Below the pieces are notes generated by a model. The model saw nothing but the letters and a program-made list of their open reading frames with translations. It ran no database searches and was not told where the DNA came from. From a virus: a stretch of 36,645 nt of DNA. Shown one piece after another: positions 18,370 through 29,094 of this stretch. The first letter of the stretch is position 1, and every line of letters starts with the position of its first letter. The position numbers and the translations under genes are program-made. The stretch is taken from IMG/VR virus record IMGVR_UViG_3300006310_000998, positions 1-36,645 of that record, one strand, 5' to 3'.

Positions 18370-19899
18370 ATGAGTGAAAAACATTATGTTGTTTCTTTAC
18401 ACAAAGGCTTCAACAAAGAAGAGGTCATTAACGCTCTTAATCGAGATACTACATTAGACGCTACTGTTAATAGTGATATAATTCCTGATAGACAAGTACA
18501 AAACGTAAACACTAGACCTTCTAGTAAACGTATTTTTGAAATAGCCCTTACAGACGAAGAAGCAATAAAACTTAAAAACGATCCTAGAGTTGGAGATGTT
18601 AATATTCCACTAGTATGGAGTGATGACTGGTTAGACTATACACAACCAGCTCCTGAAGGTGGGAATGGTTGGATGAGAAACTCTACTTCAACAACAAGAG
18701 GCAATTGGGGATTATTAAGACAAAGTAATACAGCAAGTGCTTGGGGATTAAATGTTGGTAGTGATCTTACAGCTGGTACAACTTATGATTATCATTTAGA
18801 TGGTACTGGTGTTGATTATGTTCATCAAGAAGGTAATTTTAGATATACACACGAACAATGGCAAGATAGAAACGGTACTAGTCGTTTAGTTGAGCTCCAA
18901 TGGAATACACTTCCTAATATGGGAGGTCTTCCAGTTCAAGATTATTCTGATGCTTCTTCAAGTTATCATGCAACCCATTGTTGTGGGACGGCTGTAGGAA
19001 AAGATTATGGCTGGGCTAAAAACTCTGCCATTTATTGTTTGGATACTGGTTTAGTAAGTCAAGATGCTTGGTTTGATGCAATTAAAGAATTTCATAAAGC
19101 TAAAACTGTTGATCCTGTTACAGGATTTAAGAGACCAACAGTAGTTGGAGCAAGTTGGGGTTATAAAGCATACTTTACTAGCATAACAGATATTCTATTT
19201 AGAGGTGTTAGTCAAGGAAGTGTTAAAAGTGCTGACTACGGAATGATTGGTGATGCTATTAGTAGATTTAATGCAAATCTTTATCAACTTAATGTTGAAG
19301 TTGAAGAAATGCAAGACGAAGGTATACATTATATTAAGAGTGCAGGCAATCAATATCAAAAACTTTGCTATGACGGAGATATAGATTATGACAATTATAT
19401 TACAAGAAGTATTGCTACAGGACCAATAGCGGCAGGCAACCCTGTATATTACAACAGAGGTGCAGGCAATATAGGACCTGACACTATTGTAGTTGGTAAC
19501 TTAGATAGTGCGTTATATAATAATGCTGAAGCGACGGCAACAGATAGTGATAAAGGTCCTAGAGTTGATATATGGGCGGCAGGTACAAATATTATGAGTG
19601 CTGATAACGTTAACGATACAAGCGTATTAAACCTTAGCGGAACATCAATGGCTACACCACAAGTTTCTGGAATGAGTTGTTTAATACTACAATTAAATCC
19701 AGGGTGGTCACCTGCACAATTACGCAAGTGGTGGCAAGATAATGCAGTTCTAAATTTAATGAATCAAGGATCAACAGATGAAGGAACACCTTCTACCTTT
19801 TTTGCAAATAACAGAAGTTTATTTAATGGTACTAATAGAATAGCTTATTTTCCATATGCCATTGATAAAGCATTAACAACAACTGTAGGGATATCTTAA
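18370..19899 (+). CDS. Subtilisin-like protein with altered catalytic Asp, likely structural
   Basis: The 509-residue protein has an N-terminal region of about 80 residues resembling an inhibitor I9-like prodomain (HYVVSLHKGF...FEIALTDEEAIKL). An S8 fold follows. The Ser motif is intact (SGTSMATPQVSG), the oxyanion Asn is present in SAGNQ, and the His motif is HATHCCG instead of HGTHVAG. Where the next paralogue has VIQDDGV, this protein has VHQEGN, so the catalytic Asp position reads Glu154. It may be inactive or weakly active. There is no signal peptide, so a virion or intracellular location is more likely than secretion. AGGAG precedes the ATG, and the stop overlaps the next start (TAATG), giving tight coupling to the paralogue. 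Confidence 0.8.
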   Translation: MSEKHYVVSLHKGFNKEEVINALNRDTTLDATVNSDIIPDRQVQNVNTRPSSKRIFEIALTDEEAIKLKNDPRVGDVNIPLVWSDDWLDYTQPAPEGGNGWMRNSTSTTRGNWGLLRQSNTASAWGLNVGSDLTAGTTYDYHLDGTGVDYVHQEGNFRYTHEQWQDRNGTSRLVELQWNTLPNMGGLPVQDYSDASSSYHATHCCGTAVGKDYGWAKNSAIYCLDTGLVSQDAWFDAIKEFHKAKTVDPVTGFKRPTVVGASWGYKAYFTSITDILFRGVSQGSVKSADYGMIGDAISRFNANLYQLNVEVEEMQDEGIHYIKSAGNQYQKLCYDGDIDYDNYITRSIATGPIAAGNPVYYNRGAGNIGPDTIVVGNLDSALYNNAEATATDSDKGPRVDIWAAGTNIMSADNVNDTSVLNLSGTSMATPQVSGMSCLILQLNPGWSPAQLRKWWQDNAVLNLMNQGSTDEGTPSTFFANNRSLFNGTNRIAYFPYAIDKALTTTVGIS

Positions 19900-21524
19900 T
19901 GGCTGATGAAAAAGAATATCTAGTTATTAGTAAAAAAGGTATTGACATTGCCGAAATAGAACACGACTTAGAAAGAGATACTTCTACTGACGATTCTGTT
20001 AGTACGAATGTTCCAACTAGAACTGTTGATGTAGTTTATGCTAAAAAAGCCAATGACAGAATTACTCACTATCTGTTAAATGATGCTGAAGCGGCAGAGT
20101 TATCAAAAGATTCAAGAATACACGCGGTACAGACTAAACCTCACCCAGACGCGGCACAAAAATATGAAACACAAACTGGTCAATTTGATAGATCAACTAC
20201 TAACGGCCAAGATGCAGTTAATTGGGGATTAAAAAGACACATTCTCGCAGAATACGATTCTGCGGCGGCGTCTAATACATATACAGGAGATTATACTTAT
20301 TCGTTAGATGGTACAGGTGTTGACGTTGTTATACAAGACGATGGTGTTGATCCTACAGGACATCCTGAATGGGAAGATGCAAATGGTCAAACAAGATTTG
20401 AACAATTCGACTGGAATACAATTATTGAAGGCTCGATGCCAGCAACCCATTATACTAATCAATCTTCAGAAGATAACGCAGGAGAACACGGAAGTCACGT
20501 TGCAGGTATTGTCGCAGGCAAAACTTACGGCTGGGCTAAAAATGCAAAAATTTATTCAGTAAGAAAATTTGGCGGGACCTCCGGTATGAATGAAGATGAC
20601 ATCTGGGATTGTATAAGACTTTGGCATAACGCTAAAACTGTTGATGCTAACACAGGATTTAAACGTCCTACAATTGTAAATCAAAGTTGGGGCTATAGTT
20701 GGTATTATAGTAACGCTAGTTTTGCCGACATACAAACTCTTTTTTACAAAGGTGTAGATCAAAGTATTGCAGTACAAGAATGGAGTAGTGCTAACTTCTT
20801 AGCATTTGGTTGTCCTAACAATAGACATCCAATGGTATATACAGCGGCAGATGTTGAACAAGAACAGTTAACAGATGCAGGAGTAATTTGTTGCAGAGCC
20901 GCAGGTAATGGATACCATCCTAGTGCAGGTGAAAATGCTCCATACTATAGTGGAATTTATGACAGCTACTATACAATGAATGAAACATGGGGTACAGTAG
21001 TTCCGGCTGGTCAGCCTATATATTATAATCGACCTAGTTCACCACATAGCGAAGATAGTATTTTTGTAGCAAACTTAGAACAGGGCTTATTTGGTACTGA
21101 AGAATATATAAGACAAGATAGTGAACGTGGACCACGAATTGATATAATAGCGGGCGGCGATGATATTACAAGTGCTACAAGTCAAGTAAGCGGCTATAGT
21201 TCAAAGCAATTATATCCGGGAAGTGCAACTCACTATATTGCACGAATAGGTGGCACATCAATGGCATCTCCACAAATTTGTGGAATAGGTGCATTATGGT
21301 TACAAATGAATCCAGGTGGAACGGCGCAACAATTTAAAGATTTCCTTTATAAAACTGGAAAATCTGGTTCATATGATACTGGAACAGCTGAAGATTTTAA
21401 TGCTTCTAACGCCATTCCAAGACGATATGGAGCACCAGATAGAATATTACATTGGCCATATTCTAGTCCTACCCCATGGGGTTGGAAAGGTAGTAGTGGA
21501 AGTAGTACTGCTGGAATAGAATAA
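19899..21524 (+). CDS. Subtilisin-like serine protease (S8), likely virion associated
   Basis: The 541-residue protein is a paralogue of the preceding one but keeps a complete catalytic set: Asp147 in GVDVVIQDDGV, His197 in EHGSHVAG, oxyanion Asn in AAGNGYH and Ser in GGTSMASPQICG. The first 80 residues again look like an I9-type prodomain (EYLVISKKGI...HYLLNDAEAAEL). The C-terminus ends in a Gly/Ser-rich tail (GWKGSSGSSTAG). Subtilases cleave proteins with broad specificity. Without a secretion signal and inside a fibre gene block, it could mature fibres or digest host surface protein during entry; both are inference. Confidence 0.85.
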   Translation: MADEKEYLVISKKGIDIAEIEHDLERDTSTDDSVSTNVPTRTVDVVYAKKANDRITHYLLNDAEAAELSKDSRIHAVQTKPHPDAAQKYETQTGQFDRSTTNGQDAVNWGLKRHILAEYDSAAASNTYTGDYTYSLDGTGVDVVIQDDGVDPTGHPEWEDANGQTRFEQFDWNTIIEGSMPATHYTNQSSEDNAGEHGSHVAGIVAGKTYGWAKNAKIYSVRKFGGTSGMNEDDIWDCIRLWHNAKTVDANTGFKRPTIVNQSWGYSWYYSNASFADIQTLFYKGVDQSIAVQEWSSANFLAFGCPNNRHPMVYTAADVEQEQLTDAGVICCRAAGNGYHPSAGENAPYYSGIYDSYYTMNETWGTVVPAGQPIYYNRPSSPHSEDSIFVANLEQGLFGTEEYIRQDSERGPRIDIIAGGDDITSATSQVSGYSSKQLYPGSATHYIARIGGTSMASPQICGIGALWLQMNPGGTAQQFKDFLYKTGKSGSYDTGTAEDFNASNAIPRRYGAPDRILHWPYSSPTPWGWKGSSGSSTAGIE

Positions 21525-21527
21525 ATA
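21520..21527 (+). promoter_or_regulatory. Late promoter core AATAAATA
   Basis: AATAAATAC overlaps the stop of the protease gene and lies 18 bases before the ATG at 21546, with GAGAG as ribosome-binding site. Confidence 0.55.
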
Positions 21528-21545: not shown

Positions 21546-22250
21546 ATGGCATTACAGAATATTAACATAGGAACACTAGCAAACGACGGCACAGGTGATG
21601 ATCTACGTGAAGCGTTTATTAAAGTTAATCAAAACTTTGAGGATTTAGATCTACGATCTCCGGAATCAACTACTGCAAGTAATTTAGGCAACGTTGGTGA
21701 AGGAGTTTTTTACCAAAAAGCTGGTTCTGATTTACAATTTAAAAAATTAGTATCTGGGGCTAATGTTACATTAACAGCTTCAACTAATGGAATTACAGTT
21801 AATGCCTTAGGCGGATTACAACAACTAAATGTTGTATCTGATTCCGGATCTAAGCAGTTAGTTGACGGTGATACATTAAATATATTTGGAGGAACAGGTG
21901 CTGATACAAGTATTAGTGGTAATGTTCTAACAGTTAATACAACTACTGAACTGTCAACTGATATTACTCCAGTATTAGGTGGAAATTTAGATGCAAACGG
22001 AAACAATCTTATTAATGGCGGCACATTAACAGCAAGTACTTTTCAAGGTACTTTTCAAGGAGATTTAGCTGGATTAGTACACGGAATAGACATTAGATTA
22101 ATTGCTCCTAATACAGCTGGTTTTAACTTTGGTTCATTTAATTTAGTAGTAACAAGTGTTATTGATTGGTTAATTGCAATTTCTGAAATAGACTTTGGTA
22201 GTTTCTTTGTGCCAGACGAAAAAGATTTTGATGCAGGAACAATAACGTAA
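21546..22250 (+). CDS. Short tail-fibre-like structural protein
   Basis: The 234-residue protein opens with QNINIGTLANDGTGDDLREAF.KVNQNFEDL, the same module found at the start of the 3021- and 1117-residue fibres. A short beta-rich shaft follows, with SGANVTLTASTNGITV, TELSTDITPVLGGNLDANGN and TLTASTFQGTFQGDLAG. The last 60 residues (GFNFGSFNLVVTSVIDWLIAISEIDFGSFFVPD) match a conserved C-terminal stretch of marine T4-like phage structural proteins as far as I recall. It probably sits at the baseplate or fibre base. A late promoter motif lies just upstream, and the YHYH gene follows 10 bases later. Confidence 0.7.
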   Translation: MALQNINIGTLANDGTGDDLREAFIKVNQNFEDLDLRSPESTTASNLGNVGEGVFYQKAGSDLQFKKLVSGANVTLTASTNGITVNALGGLQQLNVVSDSGSKQLVDGDTLNIFGGTGADTSISGNVLTVNTTTELSTDITPVLGGNLDANGNNLINGGTLTASTFQGTFQGDLAGLVHGIDIRLIAPNTAGFNFGSFNLVVTSVIDWLIAISEIDFGSFFVPDEKDFDAGTIT

Positions 22251-22260
22251 GGAAATAGAT

Positions 22261-23139
22261 ATGGCTACATTAACAATTACATCAAATGGTTTACCTAATC
22301 CGGCGGCGTTTGGAAATGCGTTCGGAAATAATGATTTTACACCAAACGTAAATACTGCAACTGCACAATCTTATAATTATTCTATTATATATCGTGGAGG
22401 CGAAAATACTATTAATGCACAGGTAACAATTCCTTTAACACCAATAGGAATTATGTCTAATGGTGTTGTATTTTTTAATCCTTCAGTAGGTCCTACAACT
22501 GTTCCACCAGGACTAGATCCAGTTACAGATGCACCTGGTGATGGTTTTGAATATAATGCAGTACAATTTAGAACAAACTTTGGTGGTGACGACGCAGGTG
22601 GTTGGCCAGAAATTAACGGACAATATCATTATATGTCTGGAATGTTTATGTTTCTTCCAACAGGCTCAGCAGAAACGGGAGCATCATGGGGTGCTACAAT
22701 GCTAACAAATTCAACCCCAACACCAACTTATTACACAGGAACTAATTACAATAGTGATCAGTTTAGACATCCAGATGGTCACAGTAAGATACTTGGATAT
22801 TGTTTCGATGGATATCCTATTTACGGACCTTATTCATATACAGATGCTAATGCAGAATTAGGAACCGCAGTTACTAGAATGACTTCATCATACCAATACT
22901 ACACAACAGAACCTTCAGGACGTGGTTACACTTACGGTGAAAAATCTGCTGGTACATTTATTAATGATCATGAATACCAAGTAGGTACTGGTCACTTAGA
23001 TGTATACAACGGTAGATATAATAAAACTCCTGATTATCCAAACGGCACATGGGCATATTACTTAACAGTAGATTCAAACCTCCAACCTGTTTATCCGTAC
23101 GTAGTTGGTAACTCAACTAAACAACAACGAAGCGTTTAA
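22261..23139 (+). CDS. YHYH domain structural protein
   Basis: The 292-residue protein has the hallmarks of the YHYH family: QYHYM at residues 121-125 (the fourth motif residue is Met, not His) and CFDGYPIYGPY at 181-191. A His-containing HPDGHSKILGY stretch leads into the second motif. The family is found in marine bacteria and phages with no settled biochemical role; in phages it is usually near tail or fibre genes. No signal peptide is seen. AAGGAAA precedes the ATG, and the gene is likely cotranscribed with the short fibre gene. The SbmA/BacA-like gene follows after 12 bases. Confidence 0.75.
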   Translation: MATLTITSNGLPNPAAFGNAFGNNDFTPNVNTATAQSYNYSIIYRGGENTINAQVTIPLTPIGIMSNGVVFFNPSVGPTTVPPGLDPVTDAPGDGFEYNAVQFRTNFGGDDAGGWPEINGQYHYMSGMFMFLPTGSAETGASWGATMLTNSTPTPTYYTGTNYNSDQFRHPDGHSKILGYCFDGYPIYGPYSYTDANAELGTAVTRMTSSYQYYTTEPSGRGYTYGEKSAGTFINDHEYQVGTGHLDVYNGRYNKTPDYPNGTWAYYLTVDSNLQPVYPYVVGNSTKQQRSV

Positions 23140-23151
23140 CGTTTTAAAATA

Positions 23152-24177
23152 ATGATAGGCGCTTTTTACAAAAGTCGAAAATGGGCTTTGTGGGCGTGGG
23201 GCGGTGGTTCCATATTAGCAATATCATTATGGATTCAAGTACAGATTACCGTTGGTATCAATAAATGGTACGGCGGCTTTTATAACTTATTACAAACAGC
23301 TGGCGAATATAAAGATAAAGCTGACATAGGTACAGCATTATTCTACGACAAATTAGTAAGCATCGCTTACTTAAAGGACGGCTTTGAAGGAGAACCTTCA
23401 TTCGCTGTACTGGCATTTCCGTATGTAATACTCGCAGTTGCTACAGGATGGTTTACCCGTTTATACGGATTGCGTTGGCGTGAAGCAATTACATTTGATT
23501 ACATTCCACGATGGCGTAATGTTAAAACTGAAATAGAAGGTGCTAGTCAGCGTATTCAAGAAGACTGTAATAGATTTGCTCGTATTGTTGAAAATTTAGG
23601 ATTACAAGTTGTACGAGCTCTAATGACGTTAGTAGCTTTTATTCCTGTATTATGGGCATTAAGTGATGCAGTTACAATTCCATTCTTTAGCGATATTGAA
23701 GGTTCGTTAGTATGGACAGCTCTAGTTGTATCATTAGGCGGCATTGTTATTTCATGGTTTGTTGGTTGGAAACTTCCAGGACTAGAATATAATAATCAAA
23801 AAGTAGAAGCCGCATTTAGAAAGGATTTAGTATTAGGTGAAGACGATAAAGCCAATTACGCACAACCGGAAACGTTATGGAGTCTATTCACTGGTATACG
23901 CTTTAACTATCACAGACTTTATATGCATTATGGCTACTTTGACACTTGGCGTATTACTTACGATCAATTTATGATTATTGTACCATACTTAATTGTTGGC
24001 CCTAGTTTATTTACAGGTGCTGTACTATTAGGTGTAGTGGTACAAGTATCAAATGCTTTCCAGAAGGTTCATGGAGGCTTTGCTTTATTCTTAGAAAACT
24101 GGACCACAATCACAGAGCTTCGCAGTATATGGAAGCGTCTACATGAGTTCGAACGTAACTTGACCAAGTATGCATAA
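23152..24177 (+). CDS. SbmA/BacA-like peptide transporter, N-terminally short
   Basis: The 341-residue membrane protein aligns from memory with E. coli SbmA and rhizobial BacA over nearly its whole length: YGGFYNLLQTA (40-50), IEGASQRIQED (128-138), KLPGLEYNNQKVEAAFRKDL (207-226), GEDD (229-232), FTGIRFNYHRLYMHYGYF (246-263) and WTTITELRSIWKRLHEFE (317-334). SbmA/BacA proteins are dimeric proton-driven inner-membrane importers of peptides and related compounds such as microcins, bleomycin and PR-rich peptides. The known proteins are about 400-420 residues; here the N-terminal 60-70 residues and first membrane segments are absent. The ribosome-binding site is weak. Lying among tail genes suggests late expression. 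Phage carriage is unusual in my knowledge. Confidence 0.85.
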   Translation: MIGAFYKSRKWALWAWGGGSILAISLWIQVQITVGINKWYGGFYNLLQTAGEYKDKADIGTALFYDKLVSIAYLKDGFEGEPSFAVLAFPYVILAVATGWFTRLYGLRWREAITFDYIPRWRNVKTEIEGASQRIQEDCNRFARIVENLGLQVVRALMTLVAFIPVLWALSDAVTIPFFSDIEGSLVWTALVVSLGGIVISWFVGWKLPGLEYNNQKVEAAFRKDLVLGEDDKANYAQPETLWSLFTGIRFNYHRLYMHYGYFDTWRITYDQFMIIVPYLIVGPSLFTGAVLLGVVVQVSNAFQKVHGGFALFLENWTTITELRSIWKRLHEFERNLTKYA

Positions 24178-24182
24178 TATCC

Positions 24183-24190
24183 GATAAATA
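24183..24190 (+). promoter_or_regulatory. Late promoter core GATAAATA
   Basis: GATAAATAC just after the transporter stop, with AGGA at 24201-24204 before ATG 24215. The flanking bases match the copies at 2527, 27723 and 29090. Confidence 0.65.
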
Positions 24191-24214
24191 CTGTAAGTAT
24201 AGGATACAAAGCAT

Positions 24215-27200
24215 ATGGCAAATTTACCGGTTTGGACACAACTATCAGGGCACATACTAGCAAGTTTAGAGGAAAGAATAACTACTACAGTTAATCTACC
24301 TTTAGATCCATCTAGTGCTGACCTTGGACAATTATTCAACCCAGAATCAACCGCGTTAAGTAGCGATCCCTTACCTACACTAATAAATTCAACAGTCATA
24401 GATATAACTAAAACTTGGTCACAAGAACCAAGCGGCTATACATATCCTATATCTATTAGAATTCCTACTATTCCTGCTCTTACAGGTAAAAAAATACCAG
24501 TAGCTATATTACTACACGGAAGTGGCGGAATAGGTAGTAATGAAATTACTATATGGGAAAACTATTTAGGTGATCATATTTTAGTTGCTCCATCAGGATA
24601 TAATAATACATGGAATCTTGCAACTGAAACATCTAAAGCACCTGATATTGATATGCTCAAAGATTTAGTTACAGCATTAAAAGGATTTAATAATGTTGAT
24701 CAAAGCAAAATAAAATTTGTTGGGTTTGATACTGGTGCAGGAATGGTGAATAGAGCATTAATTGAAATTGACGACACAGATATTCATTCATATGTAACGA
24801 TTAGTACACAATTATTTGATCCACAATACCGTAACGATACATTTTTCTTTCCAACAACACAAACTGGTCCTAATGCTTCAGATTATAATACAGCTACAGT
24901 TCCATTACAAAATAAAAGAATGTTAACAATTCATGGAGAAAATGACAATGTTATTCCATACAATGGTGGTGTTGCTAATGGCGTAACATTTTTATCTGCT
25001 CAAGAATCTGCATTTGCTTTAGCAAAAAGTCAAGGATACACAGGTGGTATAATTCCAGATGCAGGTGGTGTATTCTACGGAACAAATAATACTTACTATT
25101 ATAGCTACTTAGGTGGACGAGTAACACATTATAAAACTGGAACAGGACATACATTAGAAACATTTATGCAAGAAATTGTTCAAGCATTTATGACGTATGT
25201 AGTAACTACTGCACCTGCTATCTTTTTAGAAGCAGGCTCTATTACAACTATTGCACTTAATACAAGTATTGTAAGTTTAATAAGTGGACAATTACCTCCA
25301 GGATTAAGATTAGAAGAAAATCAAATTATAGGAACACCATTTGAAGTCCAACGTAGCACTACATTTGAATTTGTATTACGAGCTACAAACTCTGCCGGAA
25401 TTGCTGATAGAACATATAATATTATTATAAATGGTCCTGATGAACCTGTTTGGACAACTAATGAAGGTAAACTTCCACTAGGACCTAATAATTCTTTTTA
25501 TATTATAGATAGCAGTATTGTTGACTTTCAACTACAAGCAATTGATCCAGATTTACCAGCAGGTGACGAACTTGAATATTTTATTGCTGATGGAGATGGC
25601 ACATTACCTCCAGGTATAAAACTAACTGAAGAAGGAAGACTTATAGGAATAGTTGATCCTATTTTAGCATTAGATTTAAGATCTGGTAGTGGCTTTTATG
25701 ATACTACACAATTTGATAGTTTTCCATTCGACTTTGGATTAAGAAGTGCTAATGGTTATGAAAGTTTCTTTTATGATACTACAGGATATGATAAATCTAT
25801 TCCAACACAAAGTCCAAAGAAACTTAACAGATTCTTTGAATTTAGAGTAAGTGTTAGTGATGGTGATACAATTGTAAAAAGAAAATTTATAATATTCCTA
25901 GTTGGTGACGATTTCTTACGTGCAGATAATACAATTATGCAAGTTGGTACAGGAATCTTTACAGCTGATAATACATTCCTTAGAACTCCTGTTTGGTTAA
26001 CTCCTGCTAACATAGGATATAAACGAGCAAACAATTATGTAACAATTTACTTAGATGTATTTGATCCTAATACTATTGTTGGAGAACTAGGATATTATTT
26101 AGAACAATATAATGACGATGAAAGTCCTAGTGTGTTACCTCCAGGAATGGCATTAGATGTTAGTACTGGAGAAATTGCAGGACGAGTTCCATATCAACCA
26201 GCAGTTACCAAAGAATATAAATTTACAGTCGAAGCAAGACGCTTTACTAGTCAAGCAACATTATTAACGGCAAAGCAAAAAACATTTACAGTTAAAATAC
26301 TAGGTGAAGTTGAAAGTTCTATTGTATGGGTAACTATGCCAGACCTAGGAACTATTAAAGCAAACTTTATTAGTACATTTAGCGTAGGGGCAAAAATAAT
26401 TGCTCAATCAATTACTAGTAAAGTATTATATAGAATTCTTGGTGGAGAACTACCTCCAGGATTAAAATTAAATCCAAATGGAGAAATTGTTGGTAAAGTA
26501 AATCAGTTTAGAAGCCAAAATGCTGTTTCAGGTGAATGGACTAAAGGTTTAACAACTATTGATAATAATTTACTATTGCTTGATGGTTCTACAACTACTA
26601 TTGATCGAAAATTTATATTTGAAGTTGAAGCACGAGACCGTTTTGGATTTAGCGTGTTATCACAGAACTATAATATTATAGTTACTGATCCGGACAATAT
26701 AAGTTACAGTAACTTATCTGTTAAACCTTTCTTAAAACCAGAACAGCGTACAGTTTATAATAACTTTATCGGAGATCCTAATATTTTTACTCCAGCTAAA
26801 ATTTATAGACCTAATGATCCAGCATTTGGTTTACAAAAAGAAATTAAAATGCTAATTTATGCAGGAATTGAAACTAAAGAAGTTAGAGAATATGTTGCAG
26901 TATCAAGAAAGAATCATTCTAGAAAACGATTTAAATTAGGTTCAATTAAAACGGCAGTAGCTAAAAAAGCCGGAACAAATGATATTCAATATGAAGTTGT
27001 TTACTTAGAAGTAATTGACCCATATGATTCAACAACAGACACAAAAGTTAAGTCTGCTTTAAGTATTAAAACTAGACAAGAAATTACTGTAGATAGTGTT
27101 GACTATGAAGCATTCGATGATATTACTAAAGAAGGGGCCGGTATTGCAATATTTGAAATAGAAAATTCATTAGGACAAAAAATTCAAGTAGTAGCATTTG

Positions 27201-27718
27201 GAAACGATCTTGAAATTATTACTAGAAATAATGGAACAGTAATTCTTGATGCTAATGGAACTATATTTGTACAATTACAGAATGGAAATATTATACAAGC
27301 TGGAAAGATTGCTACAACAACAAGTGATCCATTTAGATTTAGACCTAGATTTACTCCAGTTAAAACTGATAGTAATGCTATAAGAATTAGTGAAGCACTT
27401 AATACTGAACGCTATATTACCAATGTAACAAATATGCGTGAAAATGTAAAAACAGTTGGACTTACTGAACGTGATTTCTTACCATTATGGATGACTACAG
27501 CTCAAGGTACTTCAGTTCAAGAATTAGGCTTTGTAACAGCTATTCCATTATGTTTTTGTAATCCCGGAGAAAGTGCCACTATAGCATTAAATATTGCTAA
27601 TAGTACCTTTGATTTTAGAATATTGGACTTTGAAATTGACAGATATATAATAGATGCAACCGAAGGAAATAGCTATGAGCAGTATATACCTTTCGGGAAC
27701 TATGCCTTTAATGTTTAA
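24215..27718 (+). CDS. Ig-like (He_PIG) structural protein with inserted alpha/beta-hydrolase domain
   Basis: The 1167-residue protein starts ANLPVWTQLSGHILASLEERI, a start I associate with marine phage structural proteins, and continues after residue 335 with repeated putative-Ig domains carrying LPPGLRL..NQIIGTP, LPPGIKL..GRLIG, LPPGMALDVSTGEIAG and LPPGLKLNPNGEIVG. Between them, residues about 60-330 form a hydrolase of the PHB-depolymerase/esterase type: oxyanion motif LLHGSGG (H101), nucleophile elbow VGFDTGAGM (Asp172 where Ser is usual), acid D244 in HGENDNVIPY and H312 in GTGHTLE. The C-terminal 300 residues lack obvious motifs and end in a segment with CFCNPGES. Likely a tail or baseplate protein whose inserted domain acts on the host surface. 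Confidence 0.75.
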   Translation: MANLPVWTQLSGHILASLEERITTTVNLPLDPSSADLGQLFNPESTALSSDPLPTLINSTVIDITKTWSQEPSGYTYPISIRIPTIPALTGKKIPVAILLHGSGGIGSNEITIWENYLGDHILVAPSGYNNTWNLATETSKAPDIDMLKDLVTALKGFNNVDQSKIKFVGFDTGAGMVNRALIEIDDTDIHSYVTISTQLFDPQYRNDTFFFPTTQTGPNASDYNTATVPLQNKRMLTIHGENDNVIPYNGGVANGVTFLSAQESAFALAKSQGYTGGIIPDAGGVFYGTNNTYYYSYLGGRVTHYKTGTGHTLETFMQEIVQAFMTYVVTTAPAIFLEAGSITTIALNTSIVSLISGQLPPGLRLEENQIIGTPFEVQRSTTFEFVLRATNSAGIADRTYNIIINGPDEPVWTTNEGKLPLGPNNSFYIIDSSIVDFQLQAIDPDLPAGDELEYFIADGDGTLPPGIKLTEEGRLIGIVDPILALDLRSGSGFYDTTQFDSFPFDFGLRSANGYESFFYDTTGYDKSIPTQSPKKLNRFFEFRVSVSDGDTIVKRKFIIFLVGDDFLRADNTIMQVGTGIFTADNTFLRTPVWLTPANIGYKRANNYVTIYLDVFDPNTIVGELGYYLEQYNDDESPSVLPPGMALDVSTGEIAGRVPYQPAVTKEYKFTVEARRFTSQATLLTAKQKTFTVKILGEVESSIVWVTMPDLGTIKANFISTFSVGAKIIAQSITSKVLYRILGGELPPGLKLNPNGEIVGKVNQFRSQNAVSGEWTKGLTTIDNNLLLLDGSTTTIDRKFIFEVEARDRFGFSVLSQNYNIIVTDPDNISYSNLSVKPFLKPEQRTVYNNFIGDPNIFTPAKIYRPNDPAFGLQKEIKMLIYAGIETKEVREYVAVSRKNHSRKRFKLGSIKTAVAKKAGTNDIQYEVVYLEVIDPYDSTTDTKVKSALSIKTRQEITVDSVDYEAFDDITKEGAGIAIFEIENSLGQKIQVVAFGNDLEIITRNNGTVILDANGTIFVQLQNGNIIQAGKIATTTSDPFRFRPRFTPVKTDSNAIRISEALNTERYITNVTNMRENVKTVGLTERDFLPLWMTTAQGTSVQELGFVTAIPLCFCNPGESATIALNIANSTFDFRILDFEIDRYIIDATEGNSYEQYIPFGNYAFNV

Positions 27719-28563: not shown

Positions 28564-29094
28564 ATGAGAAACATGAAAGTAGATGATCTCGGTGTACCAC
28601 GATTCACCAATCAAGATATTGTAAATTTAATTTACGAAGGAAATAGTGATAAGCTCTCTAAGATCTTAGTAGAGCCAAATCGTGACGCCAATCTATACAA
28701 TAAATCTATTAAAGAACTTGGTTTTAACTTTTTACCATTAAAAGAATACCAACCACTCCCATATAACCAAAAACAATTTGATGACGCTTTACAATCACAA
28801 TGGTTTATGCCAGACAAATATAAAAATATGGATATGTATTCTTATTTAGAACAAAAGTGTACAAATACTACTGAAACAACAAGACTAAACGACGAATATG
28901 CAGAATACAAAAAACGTGATCTTGTAAACTTACTAAAATTCCTTGTGTATTTGGTAGACATTATGCGAGAAAATAACATTGTATGGGGTGTAGGACGAGG
29001 ATCAAGTGTAGCAAGTTATGTGCTATACTTAATTGGAATTCATAAAATTGACTCAATCCAGTATGGACTAGACTGGCATGAGTTCATGAGATAA
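28564..29094 (+). CDS. DNA polymerase III alpha-like partial palm protein, no catalytic Asp motif
   Basis: The 176-residue protein has an unrecognised N-terminal part (IVNLIYEGNSDKL...). Its last 60 residues mirror the family C polymerase palm: LLKFLVYLVDIMRENNIVWG, then VGRGSSVASYVLYLIGIHKI and DSIQYGLDWHEFMR. E. coli DnaE has the same order: a helix, GPGRGSGAGSLVAYALxITDLDP, then [21 protein letters not shown]. The GRGS loop (about residues 144-147) contacts the incoming nucleotide phosphates in DnaE. The phage protein stops where the PDxDxDF metal-binding aspartates would follow, so polymerase activity is not expected. It could bind nucleotide or act as a regulator or decoy; this is unknown. 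Start may be ATG 28564 or 28573. Confidence 0.65.
   Translation: MRNMKVDDLGVPRFTNQDIVNLIYEGNSDKLSKILVEPNRDANLYNKSIKELGFNFLPLKEYQPLPYNQKQFDDALQSQWFMPDKYKNMDMYSYLEQKCTNTTETTRLNDEYAEYKKRDLVNLLKFLVYLVDIMRENNIVWGVGRGSSVASYVLYLIGIHKIDSIQYGLDWHEFMR

Follow-up and report, generated by a model that had tools for sequence, protein, structure and literature searches.

Why would a T4-like phage carry, among its tail genes, a gene for a transporter of the SbmA/BacA type? SbmA and BacA are a gateway for peptide antibiotics and symbiosis peptides, and their normal physiological role is still unsettled in the field. Since phages tend to retain what pays during infection, a minimal phage version that lacks TM0 gives access to two questions, the purpose of the transporter and the need for TM0. 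The gene in question lies in a viral record from IMG/VR, the whole 36,645-nt stretch of which is referred to here as the window. We know of no SbmA/BacA that has been described in a phage, and a search of open-licence papers returned no phage SbmA, with two papers on SbmA evolution making no mention of phages. As this search covered the open-licence literature only, the phage SbmA-type gene is called undescribed provisionally.

The gene and its place in the tail block

The sbmA-like reading frame (23152-24177, + strand) encodes 341 aa, and its translation contains KLPGLEYNNQKVEAAFRKDL. The likeness to SbmA/BacA claimed in the original prediction was borne out by the profile search that it had called for: Pfam SbmA_BacA (PF05992) matched with E = 1.2e-115 and a score of 386.8 bits, above the curated membership cut-off of 24. 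The alignment pairs residues 9-337 of the protein with positions 2-314 of the 315 in the profile, i.e. the full domain. E. coli SbmA (7p34) matched with E = 3.7e-68, residues 5-337 of the query being paired with SbmA 77-393. Identity is 40% with E. coli SbmA and 26% with E. coli YddA. A single-chain AlphaFold2 model, built on an alignment of 62 sequences (mean pLDDT 84.6), has the six-helix, type IV ABC-like transmembrane core, and the best solved matches found for it with Foldseek are SbmA structures, with a TM score of 0.83 to the occluded inward-facing form 9g3g. A library of predicted viral structures gave three matches at E <= 0.001, all of them ABC transporters at 9-11% identity, and no SbmA-type protein among them. 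A Pfam search of the reading frame and its two neighbouring genes found no ABC ATPase or nucleotide-binding domain. The gene is thus confirmed as encoding an SbmA/BacA-type transporter inside phage DNA.

Tail, baseplate and fibre genes lie on both sides of sbmA, followed by clamp loader, MazG, ThyX and PhoH genes, so the predicted placement within a tail gene block, here that of a T4-like phage, is correct for the window. Directly upstream is a gene for a YHYH-domain structural-like protein (22261-23139, + strand; PF14240, E = 6e-32; N-terminal half of phrog_2576, E = 6e-79), itself preceded by a gene like that of a baseplate wedge or tail-fibre connector, matching the T4 gp9/10 N-terminal region (21546-22250, + strand; phrog_677, E = 3e-10; PF07880 slightly below cut-off). 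On the 3' side is a hydrolase-like, Ig-domain structural gene (24215-27718, + strand; He_PIG; C-terminal half of phrog_2576, residues 299-579, E = 4e-60).

The motif NATAAATA, which we take to be the T4 late promoter form, has six matches on the + strand (2527, 15312, 21520, 24183, 27723 and 29090). All six end 17-25 nt before a gene start; as background, the positions 10-40 nt upstream of starts make up about 2.5% of the window. The six sites can be read as a map of the probable late transcription units of this phage. The late-promoter-like match at 21520-21527 (+ strand), AATAAATA, is placed to open a unit with the gp9/10-like gene, the YHYH gene and sbmA, and the element at 24183-24193 (+ strand), GATAAATACTG, to open the next gene, and judging from these two motifs sbmA probably comes third in a late unit. 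The second element also forms the 3' border of the insertion discussed below, and is found both in loci with sbmA and in loci with an empty site (L168, L176, L183 and L188).

Three other features of this region can be recorded. The genes at 22261-23139 and 24215-27718 each correspond to one half of a single PHROG family (phrog_2576). In cyanophage S-ShM2 both halves are covered by a feature with the annotation gp7, so that the window appears to have a composite baseplate protein in split form, with sbmA inserted between its parts. The tail block also contains two neighbouring genes of the subtilase family (S8; 18370-19899 and 19899-21524), which are about 34% identical and possibly encode virion proteases. 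At 28564-29094 there is a stand-alone 176-aa match to the Pol III alpha NTPase domain (PF07733), which is a short gene in relatives as well (phrog_11127).

The simplest account of a host-type gene in such a place is an assembly chimera or host contamination, and such errors do occur in phage collections. For example, the best named-phage match to the protein resembles a host contig, and the Acinetobacter records among these matches have chromosomal neighbours. One of them, 'Acinetobacter phage MD-2021a' (locus L213, CAKLQH020000002.1), has sbmA beside threonine dehydratase, patatin and pepO and in this part resembles a bacterial chromosome. Two further named-phage records, which are small unannotated contigs, are probably host DNA. 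Apart from such likely host contigs, no clear sbmA carrier was found in the named-phage and viral-structure collections. For the window, however, a survey of viral contigs recovered the same gene order and junctions in 12 other IMG/VR contigs from several metagenomes. SbmA is 88-100% identical among them, within flanks that are mostly more diverged, and one contig, of 199,810 bp, carries a T4-type Gp23 capsid gene. With the YHYH protein as query, 45 loci were collected: sbmA stands behind the YHYH gene in 12, the hydrolase gene follows directly in 32, and one locus ends inside the YHYH gene. The intervening gap is 44-67 bp in nearly all of the 32 empty sites, as against ~1,080 bp with sbmA, and the junction is clean, sbmA lying between the YHYH stop and the conserved ATCCGATAAATACTGTAAG element. 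Third-position GC is higher in sbmA (27.8%) than in its two neighbours (17.4% and 12.2%), but other genes of the window span a range that includes this value. Because the junctions recur in 12 other contigs and sister phages show the empty site, we rejected a chimera with host DNA, which is practically out of the question. What the window holds is a host-type gene flanked by viral genes, as is characteristic of auxiliary metabolic genes. Loci L002-L004 match the window at 100% identity along the tail block, but protein identity falls to about 95% at the clamp loader, a pattern suggestive of recombination among closely related strains.

The position of the gene in the window lineage, among tail and baseplate genes in a unit with a late motif, could also suit a membrane protein of the virion, packaged or tail-bound and acting at DNA entry. 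Sister phages with the same tail block nevertheless do without sbmA, many other carriers have it by DNA polymerase, UvsX, SbcC or ribonucleotide reductase genes, and a hydrophobic transporter with six helices would hardly be expected in a virion. A role in the virion is very improbable.

The short N-terminus and its cellular counterparts

In E. coli SbmA the six-helix core is accompanied by a pair of additional helices, TM0a and TM0b (PMC13316013). The first ~76 residues of SbmA have no counterpart in the window protein, in keeping with the earlier remark that the first 60-70 residues are missing, but a loss by the phage does not follow, since the cellular relatives are equally short. With only four codons of open frame 5' of the ATG, there is no hidden N-terminus. 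TM0a and TM0b are absent from all viral relatives with a covered 5' end and from all 80 cellular relatives, a set gathered with the phage protein as query and therefore uninformative on how common the long form is. The start residue is common to nearly all of the short relatives, viral and cellular. The closest cellular proteins, which are just as short, come from Rhodospirillales, SAR86, Kiloniella, SUP05 and Pelagibacteraceae, and some belong to cultured Kiloniella strains, where the gene has ordinary chromosomal surroundings on contigs 200-940 kb long.

A phage-specific N-terminal truncation was therefore rejected in favour of a TM0-less cellular subfamily. What is absent is the peripheral TM0a/TM0b, and the transport core is retained. 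We also considered TM0 as a separate upstream gene, and rejected this because no small TM0-like gene adjoins sbmA in the window or in the sampled relatives. A canonical SLiPT has the peripheral TM0a/TM0b, making eight helices per protomer; in their absence the window protein is filed as a TM0-less SbmA_BacA-domain protein and not as a canonical SLiPT.

Spread among phages and cells

An alignment-based scan found relatives of the window protein encoded in 205 IMG/VR stretches. Besides the tail block, the gene is found between DNA polymerase and UvsX genes, behind an SbcC-like gene, near aldehyde dehydrogenase and by ribonucleotide reductase genes, so the tail-block location holds for the window lineage and not as a general site. 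Thirty-two close DNA-polymerase loci extend 2.5 kb or more downstream, and sbmA is present there in 13; the loci were chosen by their likeness to a carrier and so do not form a census. A Gp23 capsid gene scored above cut-off in 6 of the 38 carrier contigs tested.

In the tree, the window belongs to a viral set of seven rows inside a clade of 36 (31 viral, 5 cellular). The tree requires 11 changes between virus and cell labels, at least 5 of them forced by well-supported branches, and both this repeated exchange and the spread are counted from a quick tree and the IMG/VR viral labels, with short contigs checked in part. Among the closest cellular relatives, identity with the phage protein reaches 86-87%. 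Within the virus-dominated clade are the marine Rhodospirillales copies L082-L087, which are 80-87% identical to the window gene and have chromosomal surroundings; these could represent a return from phage to host or a donor lineage.

The ribonucleotide reductase contexts bear on another candidate function, the import of cobalamin or some other non-peptide micronutrient. A class II ribonucleotide reductase, the B12-dependent type, is encoded near sbmA in one carrier lineage (L046), but in L018 sbmA comes directly behind the gene for a class I small subunit, which needs no B12. Rv1819c, a cobalamin transporter with functional overlap with SbmA (PMC13316013), is a relative of the window protein by sequence and structure, which makes cobalamin possible as a cargo, although the identity is just 23%. 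On balance we consider such a function quite unlikely.

Among the loci compared, no recurrent partner gene pointed to a substrate. A methyltransferase-like gene (TSPPYF motif; cluster 1) lies directly upstream of sbmA in 19 of 80 viral loci (L013-L061, e.g. L024:7935-9188 and L043:8739-9998). These pairs occupy two unrelated kinds of site, DNA polymerase-UvsX and SbcC, as might be expected if the two genes use a common cargo slot or move as a pair. The DNA methyltransferase-like gene is missing from the window lineage, so it was rejected as a partner and the two share at most a cargo slot. An HtrA-like protease adjoins or lies near sbmA in some loci, yet of 69 relatives of one of these proteases just 2 have sbmA nearby, and the protease was discarded as a fixed partner. 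Subtilases were discarded as co-inherited partners, being present also in sister phages without sbmA. A radical-SAM gene lies two genes upstream of sbmA in L024 and directly downstream of it in L027, but a pairing with radical-SAM or peptide-modification genes did not recur widely and was rejected.

The glutamate ladder, the likely role and known systems

Six glutamates line the cavity of SbmA, and the loss of any one of them inactivates or severely impairs the transporter (PMC13316013). All six (E193, E203, E269, E276, E287 and E378), a mark of SLiPTs, are present in the window protein. The gate or proton-switch glutamate E193 (role according to PMC13316013) corresponds to E137 (23560-23562). 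The other ladder positions are E147 for E203 (23590-23592), E212 for E269 (23785-23787), E219 for E276 (23806-23808), E230 for E287 (23839-23841) and E322 for E378 (24115-24117), all on the + strand. Among non-identical viral proteins the first five are found in 55 of 55 and the last in 53 of 53, two fragments stopping short of it; E193 is also kept in 77 of 77 cellular proteins. The gate tyrosine Y368 is replaced by L in the window protein, by L, V or F in the viral and by L, V or I in the cellular short forms. With this replacement and the absence of TM0, the substrate range may differ from that of SbmA. In the window lineage, sbmA is under purifying selection, with a dN/dS of 0.07-0.11; the structural genes beside it have values of 0.15-0.42, and the clamp loader gene 0.05-0.07. 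The invariant ladder and the low dN/dS indicate that the gene is kept as a working protein, which is best read as a proton-coupled importer.

Since SbmA forms dimers (PMC13316013) and likely host-type proteins are as similar as described above, mixed dimers are plausible. Phage subunits might then combine with host SbmA-type subunits and block the import of toxic compounds or the entry of competitors. A blocking subunit, however, need not keep six ladder glutamates in every lineage, nor need its dN/dS stay about 0.1, and such dominant-negative action is decidedly unlikely. The conserved ladder would fit equally with protective uptake, which needs an intact transporter as well: membrane-active or bacteriocin-like peptides would be cleared from the periplasm, shielding the infected cell until lysis. 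BacA protection with NCR peptides is a proposed precedent for this, but SbmA more often sensitises cells to the toxic peptides that it imports, and nothing points to an action of such peptides on these hosts. Although BacA-dependent protection from cationic peptides has been described (PMC12003926), we judge this role to be unlikely.

We favour instead, with moderate confidence, a phage-carried auxiliary transporter gene whose product imports peptides or peptide-like compounds by means of protons and so supplies phage production. Taken separately, and as a matter of judgement and not of computation, the protein is quite likely to be an active transporter, and the case for peptide import for supply is evenly balanced. 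A marine T4-like lineage would have gained the TM0-less SbmA-type transporter as a single gene, from a pool common to marine Proteobacteria and the phages that infect them. From its place between two structural genes it would be expressed by late transcription, and the protein would enter the host inner membrane, most likely as a homodimer. The proton gradient, acting through the full glutamate ladder, would drive import from periplasm to cytoplasm. The cargo would be peptides or peptide-like compounds, the natural guess from the SbmA/BacA family, and their uptake may help the infected cell to supply phage production.

Many large, uncultured phages of the ocean have such an apparently intact gene, inserted singly among phage genes in the window, and this suggests that they keep infected cells importing peptide-like compounds. 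Peptide import would join the host functions known to be carried by marine phages. More tentatively, large T4-like phages of the sea may commonly have a TM0-less SbmA-type importer as an auxiliary gene, gained time and again, and run proton-driven peptide import with it in the infected cell. If so, ocean phages would practise peptide scavenging as a general strategy.

Among known systems, E. coli SbmA and Sinorhizobium BacA (SLiPT, PF05992) share with the window protein the six-helix core, the full ladder and the lack of a nucleotide-binding domain; the window protein differs from them in having no TM0a/TM0b and L for Y368, and in being phage-encoded. The YddA/BclA ABC transporters have a homologous SbmA-like membrane domain, but carry or are paired with an ATPase domain, whereas the window protein has none, either fused or in a neighbouring gene. 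YddA also lacks equivalents of E203 and E287 (PMC13316013), both of which the window protein has. The direct relatives are the TM0-less SbmA-like proteins of marine Proteobacteria (SAR86, Rhodospirillales, Kiloniella, SUP05 and Pelagibacteraceae), with the same length, start and full ladder; their genes are chromosomal with metabolic neighbours, whereas the window protein belongs to a virus-dominated clade. The auxiliary metabolic genes of marine T4-like phages are likewise host-type single inserts under apparent phage control. Phage-carried host genes are a known kind, to which a TM0-less gene of the SbmA type would be an addition.
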